From the NCBI RefSeq assembly GCF_020521555.1, contig NZ_BPWA01000001.1, positions 992,001 through 1,056,000 of the forward strand: DNA of 64,000 nt. Reading direction: 5' to 3'. The notes beneath the pieces were generated by a model. That model did no database searches. It was not told the DNA's origin and was given only the letters and a program-made list of their open reading frames with translations. Each line of letters opens with the position of its first letter. Position 1 is the first letter of the stretch. Of the stretch, positions 37,392 to 44,202 are shown in pieces. Made by a program: the position numbers and the translations under genes. Source of the stretch: Rodentibacter sp. JRC1 (GTDB lineage: Bacteria; Pseudomonadota; Gammaproteobacteria; Enterobacterales; Pasteurellaceae).

Positions 37392-38520
<1,129 letters not shown>

Positions 38521-39237: not shown

Positions 39238-40704
39238 ATGTCTGAAATTACCACATTACAACCGCAATTATTATGGAAATGGTTTGATCAAATTTGTGCA
39301 ATCCCCCACCCTTCTCATTATGAAGATACGTTGGCTAACTTCATTGTAAATTGGGCAAAAGAAAAACAATTTTTTGTGGAACGTGATGAAGCCGGCAATG
39401 TGCTGATTCGTAAACCTGCCACGCCGGGTATGGAAAATCGCACACCGGTTGCACTCCAAGCGCATTTGGATATGGTGCCACAAGCAAACGAAGGCAATCC
39501 GCACGATTTCACCAAAGATCCGATTCGCCCTTACATTGACGGCGATTGGGTGAAAGCGCAAGGCACAACATTAGGGGCGGACAATGGAATCGGTTTGGCT
39601 TCAACCCTTGCCGTGTTAGAAAGTAACGATATTGCACACCCACCTCTTGAAGTCTTGCTGACGATGACGGAAGAAACCGGTATGGACGGTGCGTTAAATC
39701 TCCGCAGTAACTGGTTACAATCCGAAATTCTTATTAATACGGATACGGAAGAAATCGGTGAGATTTACATCGGTTGCGCCGGCGGCATTAACGCCAATTT
39801 GGAAATGCCGATTCAACGCGAAACCAATACCTTTGAGCATTGCCTTCAACTTACTTTAAAAGGTTTACGTGGCGGGCATTCCGGTTGTGATATTCATACC
39901 GGCAGAGCCAACGCGATTAAAGTACTTGCCCGAGTATTGGCAAAACTTTCGCAAAATCAACCGCACTTTCAGCTTGCCGAAATCCGCGGCGGTTCAATTC
40001 GTAATGCAATTCCTCGAGAAGCGGCAGCCGTACTCGCCTTTAATGGTGAAGTAAAATCCCTTGAAAGTGCGGTCAAAAATTTGGAAGTTTTACTCAAAGA
40101 AGAACTAGCCATTGCCGAACCAAATTTAACCCTTTCTATTGAAACCTCAAAAAAAGCGGAAAAAGTTTTCACAGCCGAAAGCACACAAAGCGTGATTCAT
40201 CTTCTCAACGCTTTACCAAATGGCGTTATTCGCAATAGTGATGTGATTAAAAACGTAGTGGAAAGCTCATTGAGCATAGGTGTGTTAACAACCGAAAATG
40301 ATAAAGTAACAGGCACAATCTTAGTGCGTTCATTAATTGAAAGCGGCAAAGATTACGTGACGGAACTCCTCAACTCCTCCGCAATCTTAGCCGGTGCAAA
40401 AGTCGAATTCTCCGCCCCTTATCCCGGCTGGAAACCGGTAAATGATTCCGCCATCGTCAACCTCACCGCCAAACATTATGCGGAGCTTTTGGGCAAACAA
40501 CCTGAAATCAAAGTGATCCACGCCGGTCTCGAATGCGGTTTATTAAAAGAACATTATCCGCATATTGAAATGGTTTCCATCGGACCGACTATCCGCAACG
40601 CCCACTCACCGGATGAAAAAGTGCAAATTTCGGCGGTGCAGACTTATTGGGAAGTGTTGGTGGGGGTGTTGGAAGTATTACAGTTAAGTAAGATACAAAA
40701 ATAA
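39238..40704 (+). CDS. pepD: cytosol non-specific dipeptidase (aminoacyl-histidine dipeptidase) PepD
   Basis: M20-family di-zinc peptidase, 488 aa. Zinc and catalytic motifs: LQAHLDMV (about 79-86), [12 protein letters not shown] (about 115-126, bridging Asp), [10 protein letters not shown] (catalytic Glu, about 147). A lid/dimerisation domain lies between. It degrades Xaa-His and other dipeptides. AAAGGAG precedes the ATG at 39238. It ends 74 bp before the ATPase gene. Confidence 0.95.
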
Positions 40705-40778
40705 CTGAGTATAATTGCTCTAAATAATATAAAATATCAGAGTTAAGTTGAGTATAAATGAAAGGAGCTACTAATAAT

Positions 40779-42059
40779 ATGGCTAAAATTGATGGTTTCC
40801 GCATAAAAAACTTTAGATCATTAAAAGACATAACCTTAGGTAAATTGTGGAATCAAAGAAGTAATATTCCTTTAACTCCACTAACTGCCGTAATAGGAAA
40901 AAATGGTGTTGGGAAAAGTACTATTTTTGACGCTTTTGGATTCCTCTCGGATTGCCTAAAATTTGGAGTTGAAGAAGCGTGTGATAGAAATGGAAGAGGA
41001 GGATATCAACGTCTATTATCAAAAGGACAAGAGGGACCAATAGAATTTGAAATTTATTATAAAGAAGATGGAAATGCCCGTCCGATTACTTATGAAGTAG
41101 CTTTTAGTATTGACAGTTCTGGTCGTCCATTCGTGTCAAGAGAAAGGCTAAGACAAAGAAGAAAAGGACAAAGCAAAGGATGGCCTTTTTCTTTTCTTGT
41201 GCTAGAAAATGGTAAAGGGGTTGTTTGGTCTGGAGAACAAGCAGGAAAACAGATTGATGATTCGGTAAATTTCAATGTTCATGATTTGATTGATTCATTA
41301 GATGATAGCAACGAAGAATCTAAAGAAACAGAGGTTGTTGAATTAAGCGATAAAAGAAGACTTGGGATAGCAACTTTAGGCTCCTTAAAACAACACCCAA
41401 GAATTTCAGCTTTCCGTCAATTCATCGAGGGTTGGTACTTAAGCTATTTCACCCCAGATGCTGCCCGTAGCCTACCACTAGCTGGTCCACAACAACACTT
41501 AAATATTCATGGGGATAATCTTGGTAATGTAGTTCAATATATGGAACGAGAGTACTCTAAAAAATTTCAACTTATCTTAAATAAAATTACTCAAAAAATT
41601 CCTGGCATAGAAAAAATTTCAACTGAGAAAACTAATGATGGCCGCCTACTACTGAAATTTAATGACAGAGGGTTTGAGGATCCATTTTATGCTCAACAAA
41701 TGTCTGATGGAACATTAAAAATATTTGCATATATGTTGTTATTAGAAGATCCTAATCCTCCACCTTTTTTATGTATTGAGGAACCAGAAAATGGTTTATA
41801 TCACAAATTACTAGAATCTTTAACCAAGGAGTTTAGAGAACACGCAAATGGTAAAAAAGGAGGATCACAAGTATTTATAACAACCCATCAACCATATCTT
41901 GTAGATACATTACTTCCAGAGGAGCTATGGATTTTAGAAAAACAAACCGACGGATTTTCCTATATACGTAGAGCTAGCGATAAAGTTCTAATAAAAGAGT
42001 TAGTTGGAGAAGGTTTACCACTAGGTAGCCTTTGGTATAGCGAATATTTAGATGAGTAA
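40779..42059 (+). CDS. AAA/ABC-type ATPase (OLD/SMC-like), first gene of a candidate defence pair
   Basis: 426 residues from the ATG at 40779, which sits after AAAGGAG; the ATG at 40758 is upstream of that site. AAA_21/AAA_15-type fold: KIDGFRIKNFRSLKD at the start, Walker A GKNGVGKST at 40-48, an ABC-signature-like QQMSDGTLKIFAYMLLLED, Walker B FLCIEEPENGLYH, and the H-loop ITTHQPYLVD. A low-complexity acidic insert (SLDDSNEESKETEVVE) lies mid-protein. The DUF4276-like gene follows 8 bp later. The region is AT-rich, uses many AGA/GGA codons and has no uptake words, all unlike its neighbours, suggesting recent acquisition. No restriction or nuclease domain is seen in this protein itself. Confidence 0.75.
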   Translation: MAKIDGFRIKNFRSLKDITLGKLWNQRSNIPLTPLTAVIGKNGVGKSTIFDAFGFLSDCLKFGVEEACDRNGRGGYQRLLSKGQEGPIEFEIYYKEDGNARPITYEVAFSIDSSGRPFVSRERLRQRRKGQSKGWPFSFLVLENGKGVVWSGEQAGKQIDDSVNFNVHDLIDSLDDSNEESKETEVVELSDKRRLGIATLGSLKQHPRISAFRQFIEGWYLSYFTPDAARSLPLAGPQQHLNIHGDNLGNVVQYMEREYSKKFQLILNKITQKIPGIEKISTEKTNDGRLLLKFNDRGFEDPFYAQQMSDGTLKIFAYMLLLEDPNPPPFLCIEEPENGLYHKLLESLTKEFREHANGKKGGSQVFITTHQPYLVDTLLPEELWILEKQTDGFSYIRRASDKVLIKELVGEGLPLGSLWYSEYLDE

Positions 42060-42067
42060 AATTTATT

Positions 42068-42706
42068 ATGCACTTTGAAATTCTAGTCGAAGATAGCTCT
42101 GGAAAAGAAGCTTTAAATATTTTGCTCCCGAAAATCCTTAATAATGAACATACATTTAAAATACACTCATATAAAGGAGTAGGCCACATTCCTAAGAGCT
42201 TAAAAATTGCAGACGCTAAAACTACAGCTCTCTTAAATAAATTACCTAGATTAGTAAGTGGATACGCAAAGTCATTTAAAAATTATCCAGCTGTTCTTTT
42301 CATTATTTGCGATCTTGATAACAAAAATCTAAAAAAATTTAACCATGAATTAACTACATTAGTTAATAAATATAAGGGGCAACTAAACACAGAAATTTGT
42401 TTTGCAATAGAGGAAGGAGAAGCATGGCTATTGGGAGATATATCTGCAATAAAACAAGCGTATCCAAATGCTAATGATTCTATCTTATGTAGCTATAAAA
42501 ATGATGCAATTTGTGGGACATGGGAAACTTTAGCAAATGCAATATATGACGGTGGTGCAGGTAAATTAAAGACCAAAGGATATCAAGAGATTGGTACTAT
42601 GAAATCTGAGTGGGCAAAGAAGATCTGCCAATTCATGGATATCAACAATAATCAATCTCCCAGCTTTAATTATTTCCTAAAAAAATTAACGCAGTATATA
42701 AATTAG
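42068..42706 (+). CDS. DUF4276-like (TOPRIM-type?) protein, second gene of the pair
   Basis: 212 residues. ILVEDSSGKEAL near the N-terminus (Glu8), VLFIICDLDNK (Asp82, Asp84) and ICFAIEEGEAWLLGD (Glu115/116/118, Trp120) give the E...DxD...E pattern of DUF4276 proteins, which are thought to be TOPRIM-like nucleases or effectors. It is probably the effector controlled by the upstream ATPase. It starts 8 bp after that gene and ends 11 bp before a terminator. The family call is from remembered motif patterns; catalysis is inferred. Confidence 0.7.
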   Translation: MHFEILVEDSSGKEALNILLPKILNNEHTFKIHSYKGVGHIPKSLKIADAKTTALLNKLPRLVSGYAKSFKNYPAVLFIICDLDNKNLKKFNHELTTLVNKYKGQLNTEICFAIEEGEAWLLGDISAIKQAYPNANDSILCSYKNDAICGTWETLANAIYDGGAGKLKTKGYQEIGTMKSEWAKKICQFMDINNNQSPSFNYFLKKLTQYIN

Positions 42707-42717
42707 AAAAGTTCATT

Positions 42718-42742
42718 GCCCCCTTAAAAGGGGCTTCTTTTA
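42718..42742 (+). terminator. terminator after the ATPase/DUF4276 pair
   Basis: GCCCC pairs with GGGGC around CTTAAAA, followed by TTCTTTTATT. It closes the two-gene unit. Confidence 0.8.
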
Positions 42743-42828
42743 TTAATCAAAAAATTAGTAGTATCTAATTTAATTTCTTATATAACTATGAAAATCTTTA
42801 GCTATTAACTAATTAACAAATCAATATG

Positions 42829-43773
42829 TTACTTAATTCTAAATTCTTCCTTTATCAACTTCCACAATGTCATCACCCCAAGCAATCCAATCATCAAATT
42901 TGCAAAAATAAAGGCTGCAATGGCAACACTGCTCAAAATATGATTGTGATAAAAGGAAATCGCACTATTCGCCATTGAAGCTAAACCGAATGAAAATGCC
43001 CATAAGCCGATATTTAAGCCTTTTTCGATAATCCATGGGAAAAGGCGTAGTAAAAAGAAAAGCTGTAAAAAGCCGTATCCCCATAGAATTTTAACAAAAG
43101 TATCAACCTCCCCTTGATTTAGCGATAAATAAGCCGAGGCACCTACAAAAGCGGGGGCAAGAACAATTCCCATGGTCGCACGGAACGGCGGTTCTAAAGA
43201 TGAAATACGTAAATGTTGGAGTAGAATCGGCTCAAAAATAATCCACGCAATCAAGCCTGCTCCAAAGAATAAATAACCAAGATCCTGATAGCCGAGTAAC
43301 GCAAGGGAGCTTCCGGCAGTGAAATTCGCCGCAACGGCAGGTAAATAAAACGGAGGGCGGGTCGATTTCTGTTCAAAAACACCGCCTTTCCAAAGCTCAC
43401 TGATTCTTAAAGAAGAAAACAATAATTGCCCGATAACACCAATCCAGATCATTATTTCTGCGATAACAAGATTCCAACGATAAATAATATCTCCTGCCAG
43501 CATTGTCGTGATAGGAATCAATGCAATAAAAGAAAAACGCACAGGGCATTGGTATTCTTCCCTCACTTCGTGGAAGTAATAACGAAGTTTATATCCATAC
43601 ATCGCAATAAATATTATCCAAATCACCACTGCGATAATGCCTAAACTATCACTGATATTTTCCGCCCAAGGGAAGAAATGGCTCAAGTGCCACCAAGCTA
43701 AAGACAATGCGGATAAGCCTAGAGGGATACCGAAATAGCCGGTAGGTAAAGGAAAGGGTTTGGTTGTACTCAT
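42829..43773 (-). CDS. tehA: tellurite-resistance/dicarboxylate-family anion channel TehA
   Basis: 314 aa, ten-helix TDT-family membrane protein, very close to H. influenzae TehA (SLAC1-type anion channel) as I remember it: PFPLPTGYFGIPLGL, FSFIALIPITTML, GYQDLGYLFFGAGLIAWIIFEP, LWAFSFGLASMANS (region of the gating Phe). It confers tellurite resistance when overexpressed; the normal substrate is uncertain. tehB is not adjacent. The start MSTTKPFPLP matches the family. Confidence 0.93.
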   Translation of the reverse strand: MSTTKPFPLPTGYFGIPLGLSALSLAWWHLSHFFPWAENISDSLGIIAVVIWIIFIAMYGYKLRYYFHEVREEYQCPVRFSFIALIPITTMLAGDIIYRWNLVIAEIMIWIGVIGQLLFSSLRISELWKGGVFEQKSTRPPFYLPAVAANFTAGSSLALLGYQDLGYLFFGAGLIAWIIFEPILLQHLRISSLEPPFRATMGIVLAPAFVGASAYLSLNQGEVDTFVKILWGYGFLQLFFLLRLFPWIIEKGLNIGLWAFSFGLASMANSAISFYHNHILSSVAIAAFIFANLMIGLLGVMTLWKLIKEEFRIK

Positions 43774-43938
43774 TTTTTATTATCCTGTTGAAAAAATTGT
43801 TAGTAAGTCTAACACAGTGTCAACAAATACACTTTCCCAAAAGTATCAAACTTTTGTCAAAATACTCAACATCAAATAGGATTTATTTGTTCAACCTGAT
43901 TCGTTAACAAAGTGCGGTCAAAAATTCATTAGATTTTT

Positions 43939-44110
43939 CGGTATTATGTAGCAGTCGCACAAAGAGAATTTTATGATCAATGTTTATTGGAAGTAGGGTG
44001 CGTTAAGCTTTGCGTAACGCACCATTTCATCATTAAACCCTCTATATGGTGCGTTACGTCTTCGCCTAACGACACCCCACGATGATTTGTGCAAGTGCTA
44101 CATAATACCG
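43939..44110. repeat. MITE-like repeat, copy K (best-preserved; target duplication visible)
   Basis: 172 bp. The left end CGGTATTATGTAGCAGTCGC and the right end, read inwards, CGGTATTATGTAGCACTTGC form about 25-bp terminal inverted repeats. Internal arms are GGTGCGTTACGTCTTCGCC and GCTTTGCGTAACGCACC. The 8-bp word AGATTTTT flanks it exactly on both sides (43931-43938, 44111-44118). It accounts for most of the 429-bp rpoC-tehA gap; an uptake word lies on each side. Confidence 0.92.
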
Positions 44111-44158
44111 AGATTTTTAACCGCACTTTTCGCCAAAACTAAGAAAATCAAGCAAACA

Positions 44159-44186
44159 AAAAAGCCCCATTCGGGGCTTTTCATTT
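44159..44186 (-). terminator. terminator after rpoC
   Basis: AAAAGCCCC pairs with GGGGCTTTT around ATTC, with A/T runs outside. It lies 22 bp past the rpoC stop. Confidence 0.9.
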
Positions 44187-44202
44187 TATCTACTTTGCAA
44201 TA

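Follow-up and report, generated by a model that had tools for sequence, protein, structure and literature searches.

A HEC-01-type ATPase and DUF4276 gene pair, a candidate anti-phage module, at the variable pepD-tehA junction of a Rodentibacter genome

Described ATPase and nuclease systems and the pair in the window

Known defence systems in which an ABC ATPase acts with a nuclease distribute the two activities differently between genes. In the OLD proteins of classes 1 and 2, in GajA of Gabija and in IbfA/HEC-04, the ABC ATPase and TOPRIM activities are joined in one polypeptide. PARIS has been described as an OLD-type ABC ATPase with a separate TOPRIM protein (PMC10568477, PMC12839542), and WonAB, itself located in a prophage, as a two-gene operon of an OLD-ABC ATPase and a small nuclease (PMC12137116). 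The Hma-embedded candidates (HEC) include HEC-04, reported to be protective against T4 and T5 (PMC12111858), and HEC-06, reported to be active (PMC12988326), and one paper names HEC-01 as a system present in strains of Desulfovibrio piger (PMC12724379). In the literature searched, to which the HEC-01 source does not belong, no statement on the phage activity of HEC-01 itself was found, nor any mention of "DUF4276". That source is reportedly a preprint, Payne et al. 2024, cited in PMC12111858 and PMC11411939.

The pair considered here lies in a 64-kb stretch of Rodentibacter sp. JRC1 DNA, hereafter the window. Both of its proteins match HEC-01 component profiles of PADLOC-DB 2.0.0 (5027 models, listing threshold E<=1) near full length and from adjacent genes, the ATPase matching HEC-01A (PDLC04182, E 4.8e-194, residues 8-432) and the DUF4276 protein HEC-01B (PDLC04205, E 9.9e-88, residues 1-209); at that threshold the latter, the putative effector, matches HEC-01 profiles only. 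A preliminary description of this DNA had proposed a candidate anti-phage cassette with a DUF4276-like protein, and both proposals hold, as the pair fits a catalogued candidate system and Pfam PF14103 recognises the second protein at 43.1 bits, above the cut-off of 30.2. The ATPase also matches AAA_21 at 3.5e-47; in NCBIfam all of its matches lie below the cut-offs, and the DUF4276 protein has no match in NCBIfam or PHROGs. In one search 1974 relatives of DUF4276 were found. Judged by sequence, the window pair is an added member of the already catalogued candidate system HEC-01. Unlike the embedded candidates it stands outside Hma, alone at the chromosomal pepD-tehA junction; one relative, L008, does sit inside Hma, and such embedding is how the class was discovered and is not required of each copy.

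The cassette fills an interval (40705..42828) which, in a comparison of 14 genomes, is variable in the genus, between pepD on the left (39238..40704, + strand; in 15/15 genus genomes searched, the G003 copy being cut by a contig end) and tehA on the right (42829..43773, - strand; in 12/15, not found in G011, G013 and G014). The names pepD, tehA, gpt and dnaE, in part those of the preliminary description, are putative. An ATPase gene with two Walker motifs and, 8 bp further on, a gene for a small protein with an E...DxD...EEGEAW pattern had been described. Both are present as + strand ORFs, 40758-42059 and 42068-42706, separated by 8 bases; the first encodes GKNGVGKST (Walker A) and CIEEPEN (Walker B), the second E8, DLD at 82-84 and EEGEAW, and the first start codon calls for revision. 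The ATPase relatives in the alignment start MAKIEGFR or similar and a Shine-Dalgarno-like AAAGGAG, read by eye, stands 3' of the first ATG (40758), so that translation probably starts at ATG 40782, giving 425 aa. The cassette then comprises the OLD-type ABC ATPase gene of the HEC-01A family (AAA_21; 40782..42059, +) and the gene of the DUF4276 protein of the HEC-01B family (42068..42706, +), a predicted TOPRIM-type nuclease effector. The single terminator reported after them corresponds to one terminator-like hairpin on the + strand at 42718..42734, two overlapping stems in a consensus scan, but the stretch folds no better than shuffled sequences (z -1.07); no promoter-like site was found 5' of the pair in the scan.

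Compositional claims of the preliminary description fared unevenly. The cassette is AT-rich, with a GC content of 35.1% in the ATPase gene and 31.6% in the DUF4276 gene against 40.6-45.7% in gpt, pepD, tehA, rpoC and dnaE. Richness in AGA codons applies to the ATPase gene, where AGA/AGG account for 15 of 24 Arg codons (0-12% in rpoC, dnaE, pepD and gpt, 30% in tehA); the DUF4276 gene has one Arg codon in all, an AGA. The cassette does lack uptake words, of which the window holds 52; as a sign of foreign origin this was rejected as uninformative, since, of 1238 equally long sliding windows within the 64 kb, 223 lack them too. At about 0.8 kb from pepD, dnaE and gpt are separated by an IS110-family transposase gene (37392-38435, - strand; NCBIfam 4.3e-60).

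Predicted folds of the two proteins

The DUF4276 protein looks TOPRIM-like and is predicted to be a metal-dependent nuclease, with E8, D82xD84 and E116/E118 as predicted metal ligands. Its structural model (mean pLDDT 79.5, with residues 38-53 below 50) has strands at 2-8, 29-35 and 75-82, and carries, in the order of the TOPRIM/OLD motif definition given in PMC6755086, a Glu after beta1, a Gly after beta2 and a DxD after beta3, E116/E118 coming after beta4. In an alignment of 36 rows E8 is kept in 90% or more, and G37/G39 and D82/D84 are invariant. When the metal-B ligands reported for Bp OLD in the same source (E404, T506 and E508) were compared, E404 mapped by constant offset to the invariant Gly12 of the DUF4276 protein. 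The nearest structural matches of the model are class 2 OLD TOPRIM domains, at a small margin in a second structural comparison (8.2 for OLD, 8.0 for unrelated folds); Foldseek against the PDB gave no match at E<=0.001, and its top 50 contained no OLD/TOPRIM entry. Against the sequences of solved structures the single sequence gave nothing at E<=10 and the profile a chance-like best value of 0.12, and hhalign gave no match when the TOPRIM parts of neighbouring cassettes were the target. The model and the order of the motifs speak for TOPRIM rather than PD-(D/E)xK, and here the pair would differ from WonAB, as WonB is by description a PD-(D/E)xK variant (PMC12137116). The first protein is predicted to be an OLD-family ABC ATPase; its fold matches have SMC/Rad50 heads on top.

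Relatives, inheritance and competing readings

In nearly every relative examined, the ATPase and DUF4276 genes occur as a pair, side by side. By ORF reading, the ATPase stands directly 5' of DUF4276 in 12 of 13 GTDB loci (it is interrupted in L011), in 4/4 viral contigs from IMG/VR, in the single match from a phage collection, an unannotated record, and in G058; among the GTDB loci, L014 has a broken DUF4276 gene and no clear ATPase, and the match in L015 covers query residues 1-74 only. Eight plasmid records have a DUF4276 match, and in the two examined for neighbours the gene directly upstream is in one an annotated AAA ATPase, while in the other it is annotated as hypothetical and has the size of the ATPase. 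A metagenomic protein, P0039, has the C-terminus of the ATPase and DUF4276 fused in one frame. As to surroundings, the pair of L008 is flanked by HmaB (4.2e-115) and HmaC (8e-74) in PADLOC and preceded by a ThsB/PDC-S60-like gene. On the Rahnella plasmid PRA1 the order is an antitermination gene, the pair, three hypothetical genes, and then lysozyme and lysis genes, and on the Pseudomonas conjugative plasmid pGLE121P3 the pair has T4SS-side genes on one side and mobF on the other. By ORF reading, many of the 13 GTDB loci resemble lone insertions among housekeeping genes and not defence islands; a PADLOC scan of ten neighbour proteins from six of these loci gave matches in L007, L008 and L009 and none in L004, L010 and L012.

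DUF4276 of the HEC-01B kind was found in one of 140 family genomes, the window's own, and in 2 of 61 genomes of a wider set of relatives, five of which have the ATPase, the two strong matches being those of G058 and of the window's genome. Its absence from 139 family genomes bears out the non-vertical inheritance on which the preliminary description had made its proposal depend, and the pair is horizontally acquired, not vertically inherited within the family.

The pair is likely to be an anti-phage module of two genes, gained by horizontal transfer and belonging to the HEC-01 candidate type, working as a sensor with a nuclease. In the uninfected cell the nuclease would be inactive or scarce; upon infection the ATPase would sense a phage product or a phage-caused change and thereby allow the nuclease to cleave either RNA, for example tRNA, or DNA; this cleavage would stop the infection, the cell being sacrificed. 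The split into sensor and effector and the activation of the nuclease are carried over by analogy from WonAB and from PARIS as described in PMC12409363; activation of the effector, rather than the release surmised in the preliminary description, is suggested by the reported requirement of the ATPase for toxicity in WonAB, the nearest tested two-gene system of an OLD-ABC ATPase and a nuclease among those consulted (PMC12137116). The cassette would have entered one lineage at pepD-tehA, probably through homologous recombination in the flanking genes, because no integrase was noticed. On the sequence evidence, a defence function is supported by the HEC-01 identity, the Hma embedding of a relative, the mobile contexts and the company kept at the site. 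DUF4276 is a domain of unknown function; taken as a TOPRIM nuclease paired with an ATPase of its own, it would give HEC-01 a testable mechanism.

Within defence, it is possible, although we think it somewhat unlikely, that the pair cuts DNA directly in the manner of Gabija or OLD, destroying phage DNA and sparing the cell, instead of cutting RNA abortively. The class 2 OLD TOPRIM domains to which the model comes nearest are described as DNA cutters (PMC6755086); however, one metal-B ligand differs, the substrate is not readable from sequence, and an ATPase with a separate small nuclease is the layout of PARIS and WonAB, for which the sources describe tRNA cleavage or a stop of translation. Membership in PARIS itself is highly improbable: the ATPase does match the AriA profile (PDLC02980, 4.5e-42), over 304 positions, the very ones that the general AAA_21 model covers, and the ATPase plus TOPRIM layout is common to both, but the window's effector belongs to the DUF4276 family and has no AriB match at E<=1, on which ground the assignment was rejected. 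AbiL (AbiLi/AbiLii) was set aside as well, an AbiLi-like score (1.9e-28) being obtained for the ATPase only and the second protein matching HEC-01 alone. Having two genes, the pair also differs from the OLD nucleases of classes 1 and 2 with their single polypeptide.

A role outside defence, as a selfish toxin-antitoxin-like pair or a genome-maintenance pair of an SMC/Rad50-like ATPase and a nuclease carried on mobile DNA, appears improbable. It would suit the SMC/Rad50 heads among the ATPase fold matches and the relatives standing alone among housekeeping genes, and an archaeal OLD ATPase with a cell-cycle role has been described (PMC12796447). Against it stand the HEC-01 match, the relative within Hma and another in a prophage-like position, the patchy presence of the pair, and the other defence-like cassettes at the same site, which also belong to the case for the anti-phage module.

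The pepD-tehA site across the genus

The preliminary description had suspected a recurrent defence insertion site, and interval comparison agrees, as the junction holds varied, mostly defence-like cassettes in related genomes. With pepD, tehA and rpoC as anchors, 15 genus genomes were searched and 14 intervals judged, G003 being broken at contig ends. The site is empty in five: in G001, G004 and G006, 64-65 bases separate the pepD and tehA match ends, and in G013 and G014, where tehA was not found, 116-124 bases lead from pepD to rpoC. The other nine are filled, with seven cassette types. Besides the HEC-01 pair of the window's genome (G000), these are a SIR2_2 protein in G005 and G007 (76% identity between the two), an AAA_15 protein whose TOPRIM match is OLD-like and weak in G008 and G010 (88% identity), G005 and G010 being typed by their identity to G007 and G008, and, between pepD and rpoC in G011, the nearest relative of the window's genome by pepD, a set of three proteins, one of 334 aa, one of the GNAT type and a PDC-M11B protein (1.7e-43). 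In G002 a single HEC-04-like ATPase protein (4.5e-44) occupies the same pepD-tehA site. G012 carries an aldehyde dehydrogenase gene and a retron-type RT remnant (L088 1943-3870), whose 88 aa match retron reverse transcriptases in their C-terminal part (RT_I-A, 7.5e-33). The two-gene cassette of G009 (424 and 350 aa; L086:1753-4079) has no match in Pfam, PADLOC or NCBIfam and is a candidate new defence pair; read by eye, its 350-aa protein has a D...DxK-like stretch recalling PD-(D/E)xK nucleases. Among the seven types, five therefore show a PADLOC match in an intact gene, that of G009 having none and that of G012 being mainly metabolic.

By ORF direction the window's cassette is co-directional with pepD and the other eight are opposite; ORF inspection noticed no integrase or transposase in the nine filled intervals. 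About 100 bases separate gpt from pepD wherever this gap was measured. The pepD and rpoC trees disagree in places, which is compatible with recombination here or with weak support. The HindII genes that the preliminary description places between tehA and rpoC in H. influenzae Rd were not confirmed: the sole HincII-type gene found among 140 family genomes lies off the contig of rpoC. A limited literature search, by title and the start of the abstract, found no earlier description of such a swap site.

As a tentative proposal, which we hold with less than even confidence, the pepD-tehA/rpoC junction could be an integrase-free docking site at which naturally competent Pasteurellaceae swap defence modules of one to three genes by homologous recombination in the conserved flanking genes. 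The right border would repeatedly be the rpoC 3' end with its terminator, copied in the process and then decaying, and DUF4276 would be a separate TOPRIM nuclease lineage in the pool. Natural competence is suggested as the transfer route by the number of uptake words in the 64 kb and by family membership. Cassette exchange at the site seems to proceed without need of a mobile-element enzyme. The swap site is a less expected result than the pair itself, and offers a simple place for mining small defence modules.

The border part of this proposal comes from a decayed rpoC 3' end between cassette and tehA, seen in six of the eight filled intervals that bear tehA (G002, G005, G007, G008, G009 and G010). 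These decayed ends with terminator take up the final 84-165 bases of the interval, next to tehA (L080, L082, L084, L085, L086, L087), and all six outscore every one of 200 dinucleotide shuffles, that of G010 narrowly (37 vs 33). No such tail was found in the window's own interval (score 20 vs a shuffled mean of 21.9), in G012, or in the empty G004 and G006, both queried with the tail of G001; in the empty G001, 3 of 200 shuffles reached the score. The control sample comprised 60 loci from other genera of the family, 59 of them long enough. Over 3.9 kb after rpoC, one of the 59 exceeded all 100 shuffles, and over 2.8 kb, a length that ends before the G015 copy, none did. The sole exceeding control is G015, which holds a real rpoC 3' copy: in L140 (1913-5280), rpoC is followed by ThiF-like, 127-aa and MFS-like genes and then by a shortened rpoC 3' copy, an arrangement resembling the insertion of a cassette at rpoC with duplication of the end. 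This gene set is reminiscent of microcin C-type operons. The decayed copies mostly score higher against rpoC tails than against one another, G005-G009 excepted, which fits largely independent decay. Our reading is that the copies are duplications made while cargo joined the rpoC end, the cargo in this genus being either tehA or the cassettes. Extra rpoC 3' ends in G145 (L139), alternating with N-rich adhesin-like copies of one ORF, were rejected as an assembly artefact, since each of the two is identical to the main copy in 832/832 bases, with N-rich ORFs between.

The tehA-rpoC junction is likewise variable, G004 having about 9.9 kb between the two genes with TerD/TerC/TerY-like genes by reading (L199 435-9252). 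The gap measures 179-430 bases in ten genomes, and G006 breaks there. The longest is the window's own, about 430 bases (43774-44202) against 179-294 between match ends in the nine others, and it contains repeat-like GGTGCGTTACG words.
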